Positions 2,528 through 15,162 of a DNA stretch of 64,000 nucleotides are shown here, piece after piece. This DNA is from Paenarthrobacter sp. (GTDB taxonomy: Bacteria; Actinomycetota; Actinomycetes; Actinomycetales; Micrococcaceae). Position 1 is the first letter of the stretch; each line of letters begins with the position of its first letter. The notes below the pieces were generated by a model. That model saw only the letters and a list, made by a program, of their open reading frames with translations, was not told the DNA's origin and ran no database searches. The DNA is taken from NCBI GenBank assembly GCA_031179305.1, contig JAPSHX010000018.1, positions 1 through 64,000 on the forward strand, written 5' to 3'. The translations under genes were made by a program, and so were the position numbers.

Positions 2528-4282
2528 ATGAACGCGAACAGCATGAACCCAGAGGAACCCGGAACGCCAGGCACCGCCGGCGAATCCGGCTCGAGCGCCA
2601 ACAACGGCGCTTCCACCGGCGCCCCGGGTGCCGCGTCCGGCGCCCCGGGTGCCGCGTCCGGCGCCCCTGGCGCCACGTCCGGGGCATCTTCCGAGGCACC
2701 TGGTGAACCAGGCGCCGCCTCGGGAAACGGTGCAGCCAGCGGCGCTTACCCGCCAGCCGGCGGTGCTGCCAGCGGCGCTTACCCGCCAGCCGGCGGTGCT
2801 GCCAGCGGCGCTTACCCGCCAGCAGGCGGTGCTGCCAGCGGCGCTTACCCGCCAGCAGGCGGTGCTCCCGCAGCCTCTCAGCAGAACTTCTTCGACTGGA
2901 TCCGTAACCAGGGCATCCGTCGGGGACCGGACCGTTGGATCGGCGGCGTCTCAAGCGGAGTGGCCCACCGGTTCGGCATCGACCCGCTGATTGTGAGGGG
3001 CATCTTCATTGTCCTGGCACTCTTCGCCGGCGTCGGCGTGCTGCTGTACGGCGTGGCCTGGGCACTCCTCCCGGAGCCTGACGGCCGCATCCATGTGCAG
3101 GAAGCAGCCGCCGGCCGATGGTCAGGGGGCATGACCGGGGCCTTGATCACCACCATCATCGGCCTGCCGAGCCTTGGCCGCGGATTCTGGGGCTGGGGAT
3201 GGGATGGCCTCCCCGGCTTGTTCTGGACGCTCTTCTGGATGGGCGGCGTCTTCTACCTCATCTACTTCCTGGTTCAACGCAACAAAGCTTCGAAGGGAAC
3301 TCCACCTGTGGGCCATCAGAATTACACCGCCACGCCTTACTCCGCAGCATCCGGCAGCGCGACTGCCTACGGAACTCCCACGTCATACGCGTCCACCACC
3401 ACCGGCACCAACACCGGTGTGCCCGTCTACGGCAGTGGCCAGGCCGGAAGCAAAACCTACGGGTCTCCTTCTACAGGCGGCGCTTATGGACCGGCAGGAG
3501 GCTACGGCTCCGGTCATGGGCAGGGCTCCGGCCCGGTTCCCCCCTCAGGGCCGTTCGGCCCCTCGGGACCGTCCACGCCTTCCGGCCCGCGTCCTCCTTA
3601 CGATTCCACTCCCCCGCAAGGCTGGCAGCCCAAGCCCGCCGCTCCCAAGCGCAGGGGTCCCGGGGCTGCGATCGTTTCAGTCTCAGCCGGTGCGGCACTT
3701 CTGGCCGGCGGTACGTTGAAAGCGCTCGACGCCGGAAACGTCATCGATCTGGGCAACTCGGGAAATGCAGTGGTTTGGGCTACAGGTGCCGCCGTACTCG
3801 GCCTCGGCATCCTCATAGCGGGACTTCGCGGACGGACGTCAGGTTTCCTTGGCTTCCTCGCCGTGGCCGCCCTGGTCATTGGCGGGATCTTCAATGTGGT
3901 CCCCAGGGACGGCGACCGCTTCACCTTCCATGACGTGAACTGGGCGCCAACCAGCCTGGAGCAAGCCCGGTTGGGCATCAACGTCACCGGAGCTAAGGGC
4001 CAGCTCGACTTGAGCGAAATGGAACTCACGCCGCCGTTGATCTCCGAGGTCATCATTCCCGTGGACGCAACGGCCAGCAATGTCACCGTCATCATTCCCG
4101 ATGACGTCCCCGTGGAGGTCAGGGCGGACATGACATTCGGCAACCTCAACGAACGTGGCACGGACCGGGGTGGCCGCCTGCAGGACGAGAGGACGCTCTA
4201 CAACACCGAAAAGGCCGGTGCGAACCTCGTGGTGGAAATTGACGGCACGTTCAGCAACGTGACCATCCAGGAAGGAAACTGA
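2528..4282 (+). CDS. PspC-domain membrane protein with repeat-rich N-terminus
   Basis: Membrane protein of 584 aa, not assigned beyond its domains. The first 120 residues are low-complexity and Ala/Gly/Pro-rich, with about three GAPGAAS units and then four near-perfect copies of an 11-residue SGAYPPAGGAA unit. A PspC domain follows (about residues 125-190, RRGPDRWIGGVSSGVAHRFG plus a membrane helix). A further membrane segment, a Gly/Ser/Tyr/Pro-rich linker (about 265-375) and three more membrane helices lead to a soluble C-terminal beta-rich domain (about 465-584). That order is reminiscent of LiaF/DUF2154-type C-terminal domains. First gene of a plus-strand operon of three. Confidence 0.85.
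   Translation: MNANSMNPEEPGTPGTAGESGSSANNGASTGAPGAASGAPGAASGAPGATSGASSEAPGEPGAASGNGAASGAYPPAGGAASGAYPPAGGAASGAYPPAGGAASGAYPPAGGAPAASQQNFFDWIRNQGIRRGPDRWIGGVSSGVAHRFGIDPLIVRGIFIVLALFAGVGVLLYGVAWALLPEPDGRIHVQEAAAGRWSGGMTGALITTIIGLPSLGRGFWGWGWDGLPGLFWTLFWMGGVFYLIYFLVQRNKASKGTPPVGHQNYTATPYSAASGSATAYGTPTSYASTTTGTNTGVPVYGSGQAGSKTYGSPSTGGAYGPAGGYGSGHGQGSGPVPPSGPFGPSGPSTPSGPRPPYDSTPPQGWQPKPAAPKRRGPGAAIVSVSAGAALLAGGTLKALDAGNVIDLGNSGNAVVWATGAAVLGLGILIAGLRGRTSGFLGFLAVAALVIGGIFNVVPRDGDRFTFHDVNWAPTSLEQARLGINVTGAKGQLDLSEMELTPPLISEVIIPVDATASNVTVIIPDDVPVEVRADMTFGNLNERGTDRGGRLQDERTLYNTEKAGANLVVEIDGTFSNVTIQEGN
2618..2875 (+). repeat. In-frame tandem repeats, 24-nt and 33-nt units
   Basis: Two short tandem arrays lie inside the PspC gene. 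At about 2618-2690 a roughly 24-nt unit encodes GAPGAAS-like octamers. At about 2731-2875 a 33-nt unit is repeated about four times with one or two base changes and encodes SGAYPPAGGAA. Units are multiples of three, so copy-number change would not shift the frame. Confidence 0.85.
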
Positions 4283-4283
4283 T

Positions 4284-4658
4284 ATGAGCACCAACGAGCC
4301 AGGCAAGGCACCCGAAACCCGCCCCACTGAGGCCCTGCCCAAGGAAACCCGCCCCACTGAGTCCCTTCCAAAGCCGAGCCTCCAGCAGATCCCGCTCACG
4401 CCACCGTTGGAGCCCAGCTTCAAGGTGGAGCATGCGGACGACGACGAACCCCGGCAGGCGCGGATAGGCACAGTGGTGTGGGGATTGATTGTGATCGCCC
4501 TCGCGGCCTTGATCGTCATCTCGACCCTCGGCTGGGTCACTCTGAACGGTACGTATGTCCTGATTGGCCTGATGATCGGCGCAGGCGCAGCGCTGGTGAT
4601 CGGTGGTCTCCTGTCGGCGCGTAAAGGTTCCGGAACACCGAAGAGCCCGGCGAAGTGA
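4284..4658 (+). CDS. Small two-TM membrane protein
   Basis: Protein of 124 aa and unknown function. The N-terminal 55 residues are charged and Pro/Thr-rich, with a duplicated ETRPTE-LPK motif. Two hydrophobic helices follow (about residues 63-84 and 90-109), then a short basic tail. The ATG lies 1 nt after the preceding stop, with GGAA upstream, so it is co-translated with the PspC gene. Position between two PspC genes suggests an accessory role at the membrane, by context only. Confidence 0.8.
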   Translation: MSTNEPGKAPETRPTEALPKETRPTESLPKPSLQQIPLTPPLEPSFKVEHADDDEPRQARIGTVVWGLIVIALAALIVISTLGWVTLNGTYVLIGLMIGAGAALVIGGLLSARKGSGTPKSPAK

Positions 4659-4707
4659 CTGGAAGCACCAACGTGACAAAGCAACCGCAACAGGGAAGGG
4701 TGTAGCT

Positions 4708-4956
4708 ATGGACAAGTTCTTCAGCATCGTCAGGGGCTTCGGCCTGAAGCGTGGTCCGCAACGCTGGCTCGGCGGAGTTTGCGGCGGAATCGCAGCAAAG
4801 CTCAGGGTCGACGTAGCGTACGTCCGGGTCGCTTTCCTGCTCTTCTGCCTGCTGCCCGGCCCCGCATTCGTGGTTTATATCCTGGGCTGGCTCATCTTGC
4901 CGGACCAGAACAACAAGATCGCACTCGAATCCTTCATCAGCCAGCGTTCCCGGTAG
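4708..4956 (+). CDS. Short PspC-domain protein
   Basis: Protein of 82 aa that is essentially one PspC domain: KRGPQRWLGGVCGGIAAKL, a membrane helix, and the terminal ILPDQNNK motif. The frame is open further upstream, but the ATG at 4708 sits right before the conserved domain and follows an AGGG ribosome-binding stretch, so I use that start. In E. coli PspC regulates the phage-shock response; short actinobacterial PspC proteins are common and mostly uncharacterised. Last gene of the operon before a strong terminator. Confidence 0.88.
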   Translation: MDKFFSIVRGFGLKRGPQRWLGGVCGGIAAKLRVDVAYVRVAFLLFCLLPGPAFVVYILGWLILPDQNNKIALESFISQRSR

Positions 4957-4983
4957 TTGCCGGTTACGGCCAGCCGAAACAAT

Positions 4984-5022
4984 GGAACGCCCCGCCAGTT
5001 GGCGGGGCGTTCCGTTGTTTTT
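4984..5022 (+). terminator. Rho-independent terminator of PspC operon
   Basis: A GC-rich hairpin (arms GGAACGCCCCGCC and GGCGGGGCGTTCC around a short AGTT loop) is followed by GTTGTTTTTC. It lies 28 nt after the small PspC gene. Confidence 0.85.
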
Positions 5023-5067
5023 CAGCCAGGTTTCCAATACCGCACGGCCCGGGGCAAAAGTAACCGT

Positions 5068-5098
5068 TTGTGTCCCACCCCACATGCGCGTCTACAAT
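5068..5098 (+). promoter_or_regulatory. Putative pfkA promoter
   Basis: TACAAT at 5093-5098 is a good -10 match. TTGTGT at 5068-5073 is a possible -35, with a long 19-nt spacer. They lie upstream of pfkA and after the preceding terminator. Confidence 0.4.
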
Positions 5099-5156
5099 CA
5101 TTGGGAGCTCAGCGTGGCGCTCTGCACGTATTCCTCCAAGCCATGAGTGAGCAAAC

Positions 5157-6182
5157 ATGAAAATTGGCATTCTTACCAGCGGTGGCGACTGCCCCGGCCT
5201 CAACGCAGTGATCCGGGGATCAGTCCTCAAGGGCATTGCCATCCACGGCCAGGAGTTTGTGGGCTTCCGCGACGGCTGGCGCGGTGTGGTTGAAGGTGAT
5301 GTCATCGACATCCCCCGCACCATGGTCCGCGGTATCGCCAAGCAGGGCGGCACTATTCTGGGCACCTCCCGCACCAACCCGTTCGAAAACGGCGGTGGCC
5401 CGGATGTCATCAAAGCGCACATGGAACGCCTTGGCATTGACGCCATCATCGCAATCGGTGGCGAGGGAACACTGGCAGCTGCAAAGCGCCTCACCGATGC
5501 TGGCCTGAAGATCGTTGGCGTCCCCAAGACCGTGGACAATGACCTCGATGCCACTGACTACACCTTCGGTTTCGATACGGCTGTCCAGATCGCCACTGAG
5601 GCCATCGACCGGCTGCGTACCACCGGCGAATCCCATCACCGCTGCATGATCGCCGAAGTCATGGGCCGCCACGTCGGTTGGATTGCCTTGCACGCCGGCA
5701 TGGCAGCCGGGGCCCACGCCATCCTGATTCCGGAGCAGAAGGCAAGCATCGAACAGATCACTGAATGGGTCCAGGAAGCCCACGACCGTGGCCGTGCGCC
5801 GCTGGTAGTGGTTGCCGAGGGCTTCGTTCCGGACCACATGGAGTCCCCGCACTCCGAGCGCGGCCTGGATACGTTCGGCCGTCCCCGCCTTGGCGGGATC
5901 GCTGATCAGCTCGCCCCCGAAATCGAAGCGCGGACGGGCATTGAAACCCGAGCCACCATCCTCGGCCACATCCAGCGCGGCGGCGTCCCCACCGCCTACG
6001 ACCGCGTCCTGGCAACGCGTCTGGGCATGGCAGCCATCGACTCCGTGGTGGAAGGCCGCTGGGGCACCATGGTGGCCCTGAAGGGGACGGACATCTCCCA
6101 CGTGGGCTTCGAGGAAGCACTCGGCAAGCTCAAGACCGTGCCGCAACACCGTTACGACGAAGCGTCTGTGTTGTTCGGCTAG
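5157..6182 (+). CDS. pfkA: 6-phosphofructokinase
   Basis: Glycolytic enzyme of 341 aa that phosphorylates fructose 6-phosphate to the 1,6-bisphosphate. Visible motifs are the N-terminal nucleotide loop SGGDCPGLNAVIRG, GTSRTNPF, the GGEGT phosphate loop and the catalytic PKTVDNDL with Asp. Gly follows GGE and Lys precedes TVDND, the combination I associate with actinobacterial ATP-dependent enzymes (PPi enzymes have Asp at the first site). Cofactor use is therefore inferred as ATP. HIQRGG for substrate binding is present. Single gene with its own promoter. Confidence 0.95.
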   Translation: MKIGILTSGGDCPGLNAVIRGSVLKGIAIHGQEFVGFRDGWRGVVEGDVIDIPRTMVRGIAKQGGTILGTSRTNPFENGGGPDVIKAHMERLGIDAIIAIGGEGTLAAAKRLTDAGLKIVGVPKTVDNDLDATDYTFGFDTAVQIATEAIDRLRTTGESHHRCMIAEVMGRHVGWIALHAGMAAGAHAILIPEQKASIEQITEWVQEAHDRGRAPLVVVAEGFVPDHMESPHSERGLDTFGRPRLGGIADQLAPEIEARTGIETRATILGHIQRGGVPTAYDRVLATRLGMAAIDSVVEGRWGTMVALKGTDISHVGFEEALGKLKTVPQHRYDEASVLFG

Positions 6183-6199
6183 TCGACTAGGCTGAATCC

Positions 6200-6949
6200 A
6201 TGACTCTAGAGCCCACGTCTGCTGCCATCATCCAGCTGGCGTGGGCTCGCCGTTTGGGGCTCGACGACGACGCTTTCGCCGCCGCAGCTACCCGGCTCAC
6301 CGCTTCTGCTACTGACCCAGGGGACCCCGGCAACCGCATAGTCCGCGTGGATGATTCTGCGCGGGCCTTGGTTTTCCTCCGTCTCTTTGGCGTCTCGGCG
6401 CTCGTGGGACCGCAATGGGCACTGGACAATGCGGCATCAATCCCGGACACCGAGCTCGCTCAGCACGTGACGCTGCTGACCATCACCCGATCACACGGCG
6501 GACACGGCCTCGGGTCATCCGCCTTGTTCTTTGCGGACGATCTACCGCTCAAGCAGCCGTCCGACGAACTCACGGTTTCGCAGGGCAACCCCGAAGCAAT
6601 CAGCTTGGAGGGATTATGCCCGCCTGATGACGTCAATGAGGTTGGTTTGCAAGGTCTTGAGCATCGTTTCACCATCATGCACCCCGAAGAGGACCAGCCC
6701 ACGCCCGTGGCCTGCGGGGCTTATTCCGAGTGGGAAGGCATCCTGGCCAACATGGGCGTCCTGGTTGCGCCTCCCTGGCGACGACGCGGCTTGGGCACGT
6801 TGGCCGCGTCCATCGCTGCGCACGAGGCCCTGGCATCCGGGCTGACCCTTCAATGGAAGGCCGATGTCAGCAACACCGGAGCGCTCGCGATGGCCCGCAG
6901 CCTTGGCTTTGCCACAGGCGGGCTCCACGCGAGCGTACTCCTCGGCTAA
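6200..6949 (+). CDS. GNAT-family acetyltransferase
   Basis: Predicted N-acyltransferase of 249 aa. The C-terminal half carries the GNAT acetyl-CoA core: NMGVLVAPPWRRRGLGTLAAS (beta4 plus the pyrophosphate loop RRRGLG), then WKADVSNTGALAMARSLGF. The N-terminal 120 residues are less conserved and may contain a second degenerate GNAT-like fold. Substrate is unknown. Its 3' end lies 25 nt from the convergent MFS gene. Confidence 0.8.
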   Translation: MTLEPTSAAIIQLAWARRLGLDDDAFAAAATRLTASATDPGDPGNRIVRVDDSARALVFLRLFGVSALVGPQWALDNAASIPDTELAQHVTLLTITRSHGGHGLGSSALFFADDLPLKQPSDELTVSQGNPEAISLEGLCPPDDVNEVGLQGLEHRFTIMHPEEDQPTPVACGAYSEWEGILANMGVLVAPPWRRRGLGTLAASIAAHEALASGLTLQWKADVSNTGALAMARSLGFATGGLHASVLLG

Positions 6950-6974
6950 CAAAGAACCCCACACCGAACAAATG

Positions 6975-8492
6975 CTATTTCCGGACAGGTTCCTGTACGG
7001 CCTGTTCTGCAGCGGCTTTCCCGCCCCAACCTCCAACGGACTTCGGCTTGCCAAAGAACAACGCCACCACGGCACCCAGCAGAATCGCACAGGCAGGCAA
7101 CAAGATGGACTGGCTCATCGCCGTCGAGAATCCTGCGTGGAGCGCTTCCGGTAGCACGCCGCCCATGGAGGCTTCGCCCACAGGAGCCCCGGCGGGAGCT
7201 GCGGGCAATTCCGCCGCGAGCCGCGACTGAATGAGGGCGGCGATGGCAGCCGAACCGAGGACGGCACCAATTTGGCGCGTGGTGTTGAAGACGCCGGAGC
7301 CTGCCCCTGCCTGGCGTGGTTCCAGGTTGCGGGTGGTCGCGTTGGACACCGGCCCCCAGATGAAGGCGTTGGCAACGCCCTGCAGTGCGCTGGGCAACAG
7401 GAACATCCAGATGGGAGTATCCGGCCCCAGCAGGGACGCCGTCCAGAACAATGCCCCGGCCAGGCAGACGAGGCCAAAGGACGCGAACCAGCGCGGGTTG
7501 GCACGGTCTATAAGCTTGCCAACGAATGGGGCAAGTGCTCCCGAAATAACGGCCATGGGAATCATCAGCAACGCAGACTGCGTAGGTGTCAGGCCTCGCA
7601 CGGTCTGGTAGTAGAAGATGGTGGGCAGTGGGAAGGCGGTCACCGTGAAGCCAACAGCCATGATGGTGGTGTTGCCGAGGGAGAAGTTGCGGTCCTTGAA
7701 CAGGCCGAGCGGCAGCAAGGGTTCCCCTCCGCGGCGCTCAAGGAGCCACTGCCAGGCGACAAACATCACCAGGACCACAAGCCCCGTGATGATCAGGCCC
7801 CAGACGGAAACGAAGCCTGTGACTGTTCCCCACTTGTACGTCTGGCCCTCTTGGATGCCAAAAACCAGCAGGAACATGCCGACGGCGGACAGCACCACGC
7901 CCACGACGTCGAACGCGTGGCTGTGCGTGGTTAATTTCGGCACAAAACGCATCACCAGGATGAAGGCGACAATCCCGATGGGTACATTGACGAAGAAGAT
8001 CCACTCCCAGCCGAGGCTGTCCACCAGCAAGCCACCGAGGATCGGTCCGATCAGCACAGCCATGCCGGCTGTGGCTCCCCACAGTCCCATGGCTGCACCA
8101 CGGCGGTCCGGAGGGAAAATGCGCGTAATTACGGCCATGGTTTGGGGAGTCATCATGGCGGCACCCAAGCCTTGCACTGCCCGGGCAGCGATCAACATGG
8201 TGACGTCACCGGAGAGCCCACACCACAGCGAGGCGAGCGTAAAGACGACCAAGCCGATCAGGTACAGGTTCTTGGGCCCGAATCGGTCACCCAGCCTGCC
8301 AGTGATCAGCAAGGGCACAGCGTAGGCCAGCAAGTAGGCACTGGTGACCCAGATGACGGCGTTAATGTCCGTGTTGAGGCCCTCCATGATCCGAGGGTTG
8401 GCTACAGACACGATGGTGGTGTCGATGAGGATCATGAAGAAGCCCACCACCAATGACCATAGGGCGGGCCACGGCTTTGCTACGTTATCCAA
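6975..8492 (-). CDS. MFS drug transporter, DHA2 (EmrB/QacA) type
   Basis: Integral membrane proton-coupled exporter of about 505 aa with some 14 helices. Motif A-like GRLGDRFGPKNLYLIGL and the DHA2 motif C region WGATAGMAVLIGPILGGLLVDSLGWEWIF-type residues are visible. I prefer the TTG at 8492: it overlaps the PadR stop by 8 nt, has AAAGGA about 5 nt upstream, and begins just before the first helix. Frame-open sequence further upstream lies within padR. Coupling to a PadR repressor points to inducible efflux of small hydrophobic or phenolic compounds; substrate is not known. Confidence 0.9.
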   Translation of the reverse strand: MDNVAKPWPALWSLVVGFFMILIDTTIVSVANPRIMEGLNTDINAVIWVTSAYLLAYAVPLLITGRLGDRFGPKNLYLIGLVVFTLASLWCGLSGDVTMLIAARAVQGLGAAMMTPQTMAVITRIFPPDRRGAAMGLWGATAGMAVLIGPILGGLLVDSLGWEWIFFVNVPIGIVAFILVMRFVPKLTTHSHAFDVVGVVLSAVGMFLLVFGIQEGQTYKWGTVTGFVSVWGLIITGLVVLVMFVAWQWLLERRGGEPLLPLGLFKDRNFSLGNTTIMAVGFTVTAFPLPTIFYYQTVRGLTPTQSALLMIPMAVISGALAPFVGKLIDRANPRWFASFGLVCLAGALFWTASLLGPDTPIWMFLLPSALQGVANAFIWGPVSNATTRNLEPRQAGAGSGVFNTTRQIGAVLGSAAIAALIQSRLAAELPAAPAGAPVGEASMGGVLPEALHAGFSTAMSQSILLPACAILLGAVVALFFGKPKSVGGWGGKAAAEQAVQEPVRK

Positions 8493-13251: not shown

Positions 13252-13950
13252 ATGTCGCACATCCTGCTCCTAACGAACAGCACCGGCTCGTCGGTGGACA
13301 TTTTGCCTGCCTTGGAGTTGCTGAACCACCGCGTGCACATCCTCCCGGCAGAACCCACAGCACTACTCGAAACCGACCCCACGGATATCGTCTTCCTGGA
13401 TGCCCGGAAGGATCTGGTGGGCGCCCGCTCACTGACCCAGTTACTGAAGGCCACCGGCCTCAGCGCGCCGCTCATGTTGATCCTCACGGAAGGCGGCATG
13501 GCCGCTGTCTCATCAGCCTGGGCAGTGGATGACATTGTCCTGGACTCGGCCGGGCCCGCGGAAGTCGAGGCCCGCATCAGGCTGGCCATGGCGCGTGCAG
13601 TCCCCGGCGAAGAAGAAACCCAGACCGAAATCCGGGCAGCCGGCGTCGTGATTGACGAGGCAAGCTATACCGCCCGTGTCAGCGGCCAGCCACTCAACCT
13701 GACGTTCAAGGAGTTCGAACTCCTGAAGTACTTGGCCCAGCACCCGGGCCGGGTATTCACCCGCCAGCAACTGCTGACCGAGGTGTGGGGCTACGACTAC
13801 TACGGAGGCACCCGGACAGTGGACGTCCACATCCGGCGGCTTCGGGCCAAGTTGGGCGTGGATCACGAGAACCTGATCAGTACAGTCCGCAACGTCGGCT
13901 ACCGTCTCACTCTTGTCCGCCTCCCGGACGATGAGCTGTCCGAAGCCTGA
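13252..13950 (+). CDS. glnR: GlnR-type nitrogen regulator (OmpR family)
   Basis: Regulator of 232 aa matching the actinobacterial global nitrogen regulator. The N-terminal receiver-like domain (about 1-105) starts MSHILLLTN, has VFLDARKDL with Asp at residue 50 and [15 protein letters not shown], but lacks the usual acidic pair, as in unphosphorylated GlnR. The C-terminal winged helix (about 125-225) contains [40 protein letters not shown] and TVRNVGYR. The frame is open for 80 more codons upstream but the ATG at 13252 has a good GGAGG and matches the family start. GlnR controls glutamine synthetase and ammonium uptake genes. Confidence 0.93.
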
Positions 13951-13978
13951 GCAACAACGCGGACAGATGAAGCAAAAC

Positions 13979-14020
13979 AAAGAAGAGGCCGGGATCCACA
14001 TGGATCCCGGCCTCTTCTTT
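13979..14020. terminator. Bidirectional terminator
   Basis: Perfect 19-bp inverted repeat: AAAGAAGAGGCCGGGATCC at 13979-13997 and its complement at 14002-14020, loop ACAT. U-rich tails occur both ways, so it can end glnR on the plus strand and the tRNA-like transcript on the minus strand. Confidence 0.85.
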
Positions 14021-14026
14021 GTTTCT

Positions 14027-14082
14027 TGGTGGAGGACATACGGGTCGAACGTATCGAGGCCACCCCATTGGTGGATCCCCCC
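14027..14082 (-). ncRNA. Compact tRNA-like element with G3-U70 pair and CCA
   Basis: Read on the minus strand from 14081, the element begins GGGGGAT and ends GTCCTCC followed by ACCA. These arms form a 7-bp acceptor stem with two wobble pairs, one of them at the position of the alanine determinant G3-U70. In between lie a 5-bp hairpin (CCACC/GGTGG, 5-nt loop), a 5-nt linker and a textbook T-arm: stem ATACG/CGTAT, loop TTCGACC with G53-C61. There is no D-arm and no usable anticodon loop, total about 55 nt. A strong terminator follows 7 nt downstream. It could be an unusual small RNA or a decayed tRNA or tmRNA remnant. Structure is seen; expression and charging are not known. Confidence 0.5.
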
Positions 14083-14176
14083 TGCGCTGACTCACGGACA
14101 AACCGCAGAGCCGAACGAGATATTGAGACTACCTCCCATTTCCAGTGACATCAAATCATCAGGGTTGCACCGGACG

Positions 14177-14190: not shown

Positions 14191-15162
14191 ATGAGTCACG
14201 CGCACCCGGAAAACTGGCCCGTACTGATCATTGCCGGAGCTTTGGACACCGAACTCCTTAGGGACGTCAAGACCCTCGCGGCAGCCGCCGGGGAGTCGGA
14301 CGGGAATCCGCCCTTCTCCGAACAGACGTTTGTCATGCTGCGCGGTGCGGATTCGGGCGAGCATTCCGTCTTGTCCTTCGTCTTGTATGCACCGGACGAA
14401 GATTCCGATCCGGTCACCGGAGAGGATCTGGCGGGCGTCGCCGTCGTCGTTGAAAGTGAGGACGGAAGCGGTGTCCTGGAGTTGGCCGTTCACCCCAGCT
14501 ACCGCAACCAGGGTGTGGCCGGAAGGCTTCTGGGTGCGCTGCAGGGCAAGCGGGGCCTCGACGGATTAAGCGCGTGGTCCCACGGCAACCATGAGGCCGC
14601 CGCCGAATTGGCCACGCGTTTCAATTACGGTCCCATGCGCGAACTGTGGAAGATGCGGTTGATGTCTTCAACCGCTGCACTGCCCGACGCCGGACTCCCG
14701 GACGGTGTTTCGCTCCGCGCCTTCGTGCCGGGCCAGGATGAGAAGGCGTGGCTTGCCGCGAACAGGGCTGCGTTTTCCCACCACCCCGAACAGGGTTCCA
14801 TGACACTGGCGGATCTCGAGGCGCGTAAGGCTGAGGATTGGTTCGATCCTGCAGGTTTCCTGCTGGCTGTAAACGCTGAAGGTGAATTGCAGGGTTTCCA
14901 CTGGACCAAGGTCCACCCCCGGCAAGGCCCCCACCCGGCCATCGGCGAGGTCTACGTGGTGGGTGTGACTCCGGCAGCGCAAGGTTTGGGGCTTGGCAAA
15001 GCCCTCACGGTTGCGGGCATCAAGCATCTCCAGGACCAAGGCCTGCATGCCGTGATGCTCTACGTTGATGCCGACAATGAGGCAGCAGTAGCTCTATATC
15101 AGAAGCTTGGCTTTGTTCGCTGGGACACCGACGTGATGTATGGGCCTTTAACCAAAAATTAA
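14191..15162 (+). CDS. mshD: Mycothiol synthase
   Basis: Acetyltransferase of 323 aa that acetylates the cysteinyl amine of Cys-GlcN-Ins, the last step of mycothiol synthesis, using acetyl-CoA. It has two tandem GNAT domains. The first has VVVESEDGSGVLELAVHPSYRNQGVAGRLL (about 90-118). The second has HPAIGEVYVVGVTPAAQGLGLGKALTVAG, then YVDADNEAAVALYQKLGFVRWDTDVMY. Length and architecture match actinobacterial MshD. Mycothiol is the main low-molecular-weight thiol of actinobacteria. Confidence 0.93.
   Translation: MSHAHPENWPVLIIAGALDTELLRDVKTLAAAAGESDGNPPFSEQTFVMLRGADSGEHSVLSFVLYAPDEDSDPVTGEDLAGVAVVVESEDGSGVLELAVHPSYRNQGVAGRLLGALQGKRGLDGLSAWSHGNHEAAAELATRFNYGPMRELWKMRLMSSTAALPDAGLPDGVSLRAFVPGQDEKAWLAANRAAFSHHPEQGSMTLADLEARKAEDWFDPAGFLLAVNAEGELQGFHWTKVHPRQGPHPAIGEVYVVGVTPAAQGLGLGKALTVAGIKHLQDQGLHAVMLYVDADNEAAVALYQKLGFVRWDTDVMYGPLTKN

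Follow-up and report, generated by a model that had tools for sequence, protein, structure and literature searches.

The DNA analysed here (the window) is a whole stretch of 64,000 nucleotides, positions 1 to 64,000 of contig JAPSHX010000018.1 of Paenarthrobacter sp. (assembly GCA_031179305.1). The subject of this work is a small tRNA-like element on its minus strand, placed between the mycothiol synthase gene mshD and the gene of a GlnR-type regulator (Table 1). Read directly from position 14081 down to 14027, the element is an RNA of 55 nucleotides (nt) with a 7-bp acceptor stem, a T-arm stacked directly on it and one small hairpin, while the anticodon arm is absent. A first-pass annotation, made from the sequence alone, had described the acceptor stem GGGGGAT/GTCCTCC with G3-U70 and a T-arm with the loop TTCGACC, and direct reading confirmed both: positions 14081-14075 pair with 14037-14031, the seven pairs including G3.U70 and a closing U7.G66, and the T-stem has 5 bp. 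As shown below, this is a conserved, covarying RNA, arranged like a transcription unit and bearing the bacterial acceptor-stem determinants of alanine identity.

Table 1. Coordinates of the tRNA-like RNA, its parts and its surroundings in the window.
Feature	Positions	Strand	Basis or remark
tRNA-like RNA, G1 to encoded CCA, 55 nt	14027..14081	-	read directly; mature ends inferred; covariance-model score 86.7 bits
Acceptor stem, 5' strand GGGGGAU (G1-U7), G3 = 14079	14075..14081	-	G3.U70 in 44/44 distinct rows
D-arm-like hairpin, 5 bp, loop AATGG with GG; pairs 14074-14070/14064-14060	14060..14074	-	covariation; GG in 45/45 rows
Single-stranded linker CCTCG, at the place of anticodon arm and variable loop	14055..14059	-	read directly
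T-arm, 5-bp stem ATACG/CGTAT (14054-14050/14042-14038), loop TTCGACC	14038..14054	-	joint changes of T-stem pairs in L316-L323
Acceptor stem, 3' strand GTCCTCC (U70 = 14033), and discriminator A73 (14030)	14030..14037	-	alignment rows
Encoded CCA; C74 conserved, C75 and A76 not	14027..14029	-	relatives' alignment
Bidirectional intrinsic terminator	13977..14022	-	terminator scan; 20 pairs, the scan's maximum
Putative weak sigma-70-like promoter, TTGATG (14154-14149), 17 nt, TAGTCT (14131-14126)	14126..14154	-	by eye
mshD, mycothiol synthase, divergent neighbour	14191..15162	+	TIGR03448, 371 bits (cut-off 163)
GlnR-type regulator, convergent neighbour	13252..13950	+	PF21695 and PF00486; start placed at the ATG of MSHILLL (start given by the open reading frame tool, 13012)

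The conservation of the element was studied with a 216-base query, which matched 23 of 36 same-genus relatives and gave no match of meaningful score in 22 relatives from other families. In all 23 matching relatives, the 53-nt core was 94–100% identical to the window while the flanks were divergent, and in 19 of them the best match started exactly at or close to position 110 or 100 of the query, so that it comprised essentially the tRNA-like core and little flank. The distribution was then taken from three covariance models: 18 of the 24 loci available at that stage went into R1, and R2 and R3 were based on 48 and 45 selected matches, respectively. The RNA was found in 96 of 295 genomes of the window's family, Micrococcaceae (E < 1e-10, own genome included); the first of the models gave no such score in other families when 297 genomes of the window's order were searched. 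Later models gave 10 positive genomes among 298 from the order to which Gordonia desulfuricans belongs, and 7 among 345 from the class; these seven were three Micrococcaceae, two members of family f19 in the window's order and two of other families, one of the seven (G1105; G and L numbers label genomes and loci) being probably Gordonia hirsuta (G603) again, as the coordinates are identical. Presence in the family genomes was scored with strict filters, 36 of the RNA-free genomes, including two from outside the Micrococcaceae, went through a second search under laxer filters, and weak matches were treated as due to chance and left out of the counts: nine family genomes with only E of at least 0.004 (including G096), G461, G418 and G079. 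Locus L107, from G096, stands in alignment A2 and was excluded from A3 and A4.

A pattern scan gave, among the matches listed, Arthrobacter, Pseudarthrobacter, Paenarthrobacter, Sinomonas, Tersicoccus, Acaricomes, a Renibacterium bin, Williamsia, Gordonia, a Rhodococcus bin and a Kitasatospora record. So, beyond the Micrococcaceae, the RNA is scattered in Gordonia, Williamsia and further actinobacteria. A contig filed as Vibrio cholerae 35D (L132) has the RNA, mshD and the regulator in the Arthrobacter order, and is probably a contaminating contig; the record named Kitasatospora arboriphila (L146) has a Williamsia-like cluster, and its name or assembly may be mixed. Two copies 746 bases apart occur in Arthrobacter sp. 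Br18 (L186 4515-4538 and 5261-5284), with identical near flanks and possibly as an assembly repeat. Two strong copies each were also present in Gordonia desulfuricans, both Williamsia genomes and the Rhodococcus bin (genomes of L173, L120, L142 and L158), those of G. desulfuricans (L173, 2699-2754 and 6362-6417) flanking the transferase gene described below on either side.

Concerning the fold, changes at paired positions were counted in 44 distinct rows and compared to shuffled controls. Alignments A2 to A4 were fitted to the modelled fold, so that counts made on them lean towards it. In 53 cells both partners of a pair had changed, as compared to a mean of 10.6 in the shuffles, the covariation score was 0.232 against 0.087 (neither value being equalled in any of 500 shuffles), 98.9% of the cells paired, and the score dropped in every slid control. 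The covariation sits in the T-stem and the hairpin: the T-stem ATACG/CGTAT changes to CCAGG/CCTGG and CTAGG/CCTAG, and one hairpin pair occurs as CG, GC, GU and AU. The acceptor stem hardly varies, with five of its seven pairs invariant. T54, T55, C56 and A58 of the T-loop were constant in 45/45 rows, only 57, 59 and 60 varying, which is a tRNA-like pattern. What was found is a minihelix of acceptor stem and T-arm, 7 bp on 5 bp with a canonical T-loop, kept by covariation. The linker is variable in sequence among relatives and differs in length by one base. With an alignment that had itself been fitted to the fold, RNAalifold recovered all of it except one pair of the hairpin. Because the core is kept while the flanks diverge, and because paired positions covary, the element is more than a chance resemblance, and its fold is under selection. 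Both results expected from an alignment of relatives, conservation and compensatory changes, were thus obtained.

The hairpin deserves separate consideration, as the first-pass annotation had described a 5-bp hairpin replacing the D- and anticodon arms. The hairpin and the lack of an anticodon arm stand; the lack of a D-arm is doubtful, because the loop holds the same GG as a D-loop in every aligned row, and the hairpin looks like a D-arm. Outside the alignment, the RNAs L334 and L335 of family f19 deviate: their T-loops are TGCGAAT and TGCGATT (G55) and their hairpin loops are altered as well, a hint of contact between the two loops. A contact between hairpin loop and T-loop would fit the constant GG, and the G55 members with altered loop are only suggestive of it; no clear association was seen between R57 and the base preceding GG.

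Standard models did not recognise the RNA. Rfam 15 and ARAGORN reported neither tRNA nor transfer-messenger RNA (tmRNA) at the window element, which belongs to no Rfam family, and on seven related loci they gave no match to the RNA, although one unrelated tRNA was found; identification as a tRNA or tmRNA by such models was rejected on these grounds. Rfam matches below gathering score over the terminator and in L319 were taken as chance hairpin matches. The annotation had also considered a decayed tRNA, or the 3' end of tmRNA left by integration. The resemblance to the 3' half of a tRNA speaks for such a remnant, or for an attachment site, but the own assembly (82.8% complete; ssrA itself not located) contains no second copy and no convincing tRNA or ssrA-like match, the phage, plasmid and viral collections gave no match, and the core is conserved across genera with compensatory changes and recurs beside a truncated synthetase and a membrane transferase (see below). 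An attachment-site remnant was rejected for lack of a tRNA- or ssrA-end copy in the own assembly and of any phage, plasmid or viral match, and a remnant origin of whatever kind is hardly credible.

The acceptor end was compared with the bacterial tRNA-Ala determinants as tabulated in PMC9976931, which are A73, G2-C71, G3.U70, G4-C69 and G20. The first four were all present in 45/45 rows, and G20 could not be placed. According to the same source, RNA minihelices bearing the acceptor end of tRNA-Ala take alanine, with G3.U70 as the main determinant (Francklyn and Schimmel 1989, as cited in PMC9976931). By these acceptor determinants, the RNA is predicted to be charged with alanine. A73-C74 was kept in all 45 aligned rows, and the complete CCA was encoded in 76 of 175 distinct contexts, found with a search pattern that required A73-C74. 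So, the encoded ACCA of the first annotation is present in the window and is not a fixed mark of the family. The lack of an encoded CCA elsewhere is not unusual, as it is also missing from both ordinary tRNA genes in the window (tRNA-Met and tRNA-Thr).

The surroundings of the RNA resemble those of a small transcription unit. The terminator that had been annotated after the element is there and is bidirectional, with 20 pairs instead of the 19 bp claimed, and stems of at least 7 bp were found downstream in 144 of 175 RNA contexts against 187 of 865 control windows. A promoter scan accepted, at its threshold, no promoter upstream of the RNA; at the site corresponding to the putative promoter of the window, TATAGT was found in many relatives. 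Between the promoter-like site and the RNA (14082-14125), an apparent variable hairpin of the type CATCCGGC...GCCGGATG was seen by eye in many relatives (same place in L010-L032). The constant position between both genes in Micrococcaceae loci, 73/80 of which have mshD and/or the regulator beside the RNA, could suggest a cis-acting element of either gene. This is very unlikely, since the RNA and mshD diverge, the terminator lies between the RNA and the regulator, and neither gene was found beside it outside the Micrococcaceae or in the Micrococcaceae genome G133, which led to the rejection of an mshD-specific element.

The genes near the RNA were surveyed for mshD, the regulator and three others which adjoin it in Williamsia, Gordonia and others: an esterase (PF00756, with a hydrophobic N-terminal part), an MprF-type transferase (PF09924, the MprF C-terminal domain) and a truncated alanyl-tRNA synthetase (AlaRS), here called mini-AlaRS. 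The transferase proteins fall well below the NCBIfam cut-offs for MprF and LysX, and one has a rhomboid match below cut-off. Among 176 distinct contexts, many of them loci only 3 kb long, 149 were at mshD and/or the regulator, 19 had transferase, esterase or mini-AlaRS at a distance of up to 8 kb (including L120, L142, L146, L158, L159, L173, L195, L320, L323 and L333-L335), and 8 were near none. In L331, around L323, the RNA, transferase, esterase and mini-AlaRS are all together, and the RNA adjoins mini-AlaRS in two loci of the window's own order, L360 and L361. In the 298 genomes already mentioned, the RNA was present in 10, mini-AlaRS in 12 and both in 10, i.e., 10/10 and 10/12 (Fisher p 5e-17, relatedness ignored).

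The mini-AlaRS proteins have about 470 amino acids and match positions 1-433 of the 552 of PF01411. With 380.6 bits against NCBIfam alaS, below the cut-off of 457.05, the protein is not a full-length AlaRS with editing and C-terminal domains. Fifteen of 16 sequences end 383-397 or 381 residues past the TFFEMLGN motif, the sixteenth (L173) being cut by the end of the locus. In a tree with six of 13 full-length AlaRS as the comparison set, the 16 lie on one side of a fully supported branch, as a clade of their own, with a mean identity of 67% among themselves and 40% to full-length AlaRS. The alignment of the Williamsia protein with the crystallised N-terminal fragment of Escherichia coli AlaRS runs almost from one end to the other (residues 5-437 of the 441 in the chain), and an E. 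coli fragment of about that size charges alanine minihelices. The motif 2 and motif 3 signatures are kept, as are the counterparts of E. coli N303 and D400 in the alignment, which we take to be the readers of G3.U70, in 14/16 and 15/16 sequences, respectively (two lack the former and one the latter). So, mini-AlaRS has the class II catalytic core and is predicted to be an active AlaRS. In the Gordonia locus L342 (G603), the mini-AlaRS match was reported as containing one internal TAA.

In the Micrococcaceae the picture is different in part. No mini-AlaRS was found in other members of the family, 119 of 120 genomes having a single AlaRS (full length, except for one that the assembly had split); in the window's own assembly, which is incomplete as said, protein and profile searches found neither mini-AlaRS nor any AlaRS, so that the absence holds for those members and not for this genome. 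Without mini-AlaRS in the family, the housekeeping AlaRS would have to charge the RNA there. Two transferase-esterase pairs are present in the own genome, on contigs other than that of the window (L296 5591-9387 and L297 4380-8199; contigs C28 and C9), one presumably near an atpD-like gene and the other near a dnaG-like gene. In G133 (L298), which is one of the 19 contexts counted near transferase, esterase or mini-AlaRS, the RNA (at 3452), the transferase match (3947-6331) and the esterase match (6351-7634) follow in a row on one strand, away from mshD.

Over the 120 family genomes, a transferase resembling AlaDAGS, the alanyl-transferase of Corynebacterium, was present in 29 of 38 genomes with the RNA against 20 of 82 without it (Fisher p 1e-7, with relatedness ignored and typing partly by size). 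The typing was as follows. In the 31 RNA genomes with PF09924, 24 proteins were typed (22 AlaDAGS-like, 2 LysX-like) and seven were taken as AlaDAGS-like by reading-frame size; in the 31 PF09924 genomes without RNA, 17 were typed AlaDAGS-like and nine LysX-like, four were assigned by size or genus (three AlaDAGS-like, one of them a fragment, and one LysX-like), and G108 was unclear. The nine RNA genomes lacking such a transferase (seven with no PF09924 match and two with the LysX type only) leave room for another user of the alanine, and in the window's family the lipid link is likely, though not exclusive. Lys-Ala bridges occur in Arthrobacter-type cell walls, and the user in Micrococcaceae could be mainly a Fem/MurM-type peptidoglycan transferase making alanine-containing cross-bridges, with the lipid link belonging mainly to other families. 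Fem and MprF ligases are related enzymes of GNAT fold (PMC2922099). Nevertheless, lipid is indicated by the clusters of other families and by the succession of RNA, transferase and esterase in G133, and such a wall-directed use looks rather unlikely as the main one.

From the conservation, fold, identity elements and genomic association observed, a course for expression, charging, transfer and product can be proposed. The RNA would be transcribed from the minus strand and trimmed to G1 and A73, CCA being added where the genome does not encode it. Alanine would be charged through G3.U70, by the dedicated mini-AlaRS in Gordonia-type bacteria and by the housekeeping AlaRS in Arthrobacter-type bacteria. 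As the RNA has no anticodon and hence cannot decode, alanine on it would be reserved for non-ribosomal use. The most likely user would be the AlaDAGS-related MprF-type membrane transferase, paired with the esterase in the same cluster or genome, which would take the alanine from the RNA; in Micrococcaceae without an AlaDAGS-like transferase, some other aminoacyl-transferase would have to be the user. So, with a probability of about two in three, the element is a free-standing mini-tRNA gene, a tRNA-Ala cut to acceptor stem, T-arm and D-arm-like hairpin, that would carry alanine for non-ribosomal, mainly lipid, alanylation. A free-standing minihelix gene of alanine type was the leading idea of the first-pass annotation, and it gains support from the conservation, the compensatory changes and the recurrence beside truncated AlaRS and MprF-type transferase in other families. 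It also seems fairly probable that natural minihelix and truncated AlaRS make up a second, translation-free alanine-charging pair, a private supply for the modification of membrane lipid and perhaps wall, the housekeeping AlaRS acting alone in Arthrobacter-type bacteria.

Several observations weigh against this proposal of a lipid-directed mini-tRNA. Concerning the fold, two of five covariation measures were not above shuffles: pairs with double change numbered 6, reached by 40/500 shuffles, and further pair types 11, reached by 287/500. The minimum-energy fold of the window RNA has a UCGA/UCGA hairpin in place of the T-arm, the single-sequence folding energy is ordinary compared to shuffles (z 0.32 and -0.04), and of four relatives folded singly only L317 gave the full fold; the fold thus rests on covariation and T-loop conservation, thermodynamics alone giving no support. 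Concerning the context, the RNA of Micrococcaceae usually lies at mshD rather than at the transferase, as seen in the survey; no mini-AlaRS was seen in the family; eight contexts are near none of the surveyed genes, five of these having been inspected over 13-14 kb; and two mini-AlaRS genomes (G740 and G647) gave no RNA, either genome-wide with laxer filters or near the gene with filters off. The association with the transferase is also loose on both sides, about 20 RNA-free genomes having the AlaDAGS-like type and nine RNA genomes lacking it.

The lack of linkage to the transferase in most Micrococcaceae contexts, together with the small size of the RNA and its layout with terminator and promoter-like site, would also suit a regulatory tRNA mimic, which would bind AlaRS or another tRNA-binding protein and sense alanine or titrate the protein without any donor role. 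However, the fixed acceptor end, the constant A73-C74, the CCA encoded in part of the contexts and a partner mini-AlaRS with conserved catalytic motifs suggest chemical use of the 3' end, and make a purely regulatory role quite improbable.

If the proposed donor role of the RNA is true, its interest is wide. For decades, minihelices have served in the laboratory as models of primitive tRNAs, and here the 'operational RNA code' of the acceptor stem would work alone in living cells, in a gene-encoded minihelix paired in some lineages with a synthetase reduced to roughly the crystallised part with the full catalytic core. There would be a defined route diverting alanine from translation to the cell envelope, the role of alanylated diacylglycerol would become testable, and a small, possibly orthogonal pair of RNA and synthetase would be on offer. 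A dedicated mini-tRNA was not found in Rfam 15 or by text searches of an open-access library, a scope that excludes most subscription papers and preprints.

Comparison with known systems places the RNA among several partial precedents. The minihelix substrates of AlaRS are laboratory constructs, whereas here there is a genomic gene family with an added D-arm-like hairpin. The tRNA-like domain of tmRNA has alanine identity, an acceptor stem and T-arm, a reduced D region and no anticodon. The RNA is similar to it in its predicted alanine identity, acceptor stem, T-arm, reduced D region and absence of anticodon; it has no mRNA or pseudoknot part, amounts to about 55 nt in total, gave no tmRNA match with Rfam or ARAGORN, and cannot support tagging by the tmRNA route. 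The non-proteinogenic tRNA-Gly of Staphylococcus is a full-length tRNA with anticodon, reserved for envelope synthesis; the present RNA would resemble it in envelope dedication and differs in having no anticodon arm.

On the protein side, the biosynthesis of ascamycin combines in one pathway an extra AlaRS (AcmD), a truncated AlaRS-like protein (AcmF) and an alpha/beta hydrolase (AcmE), AcmF being reported to lack most key activation residues and to use Ala-tRNA made by AcmD (PMC12945691). In contrast, mini-AlaRS keeps the motif 2 and motif 3 signatures, and for ascamycin no special RNA is mentioned. In Corynebacterium glutamicum and C. pseudotuberculosis, the MprF-type alanyl-transferase AlaDAGS gives alanyl-diacylglycerol (Ala-DAG) and alanyl-phosphatidylglycerol (Ala-PG), and pesT was co-deleted in C. 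glutamicum; the significance of Ala-DAG in Corynebacterium is given as unknown, and the accessible part of the report mentions neither a dedicated RNA nor a mini-AlaRS (PMC10580965). We infer that the esterase associated with the RNA corresponds to PesT. Finally, LysX and VlmL/VlmA are a precedent for reserving a synthetase paralog, outside translation, for an MprF-type transferase, with no dedicated RNA mentioned in the accessible part of that source (PMC2922099), while in the system considered here the RNA itself appears to be dedicated.
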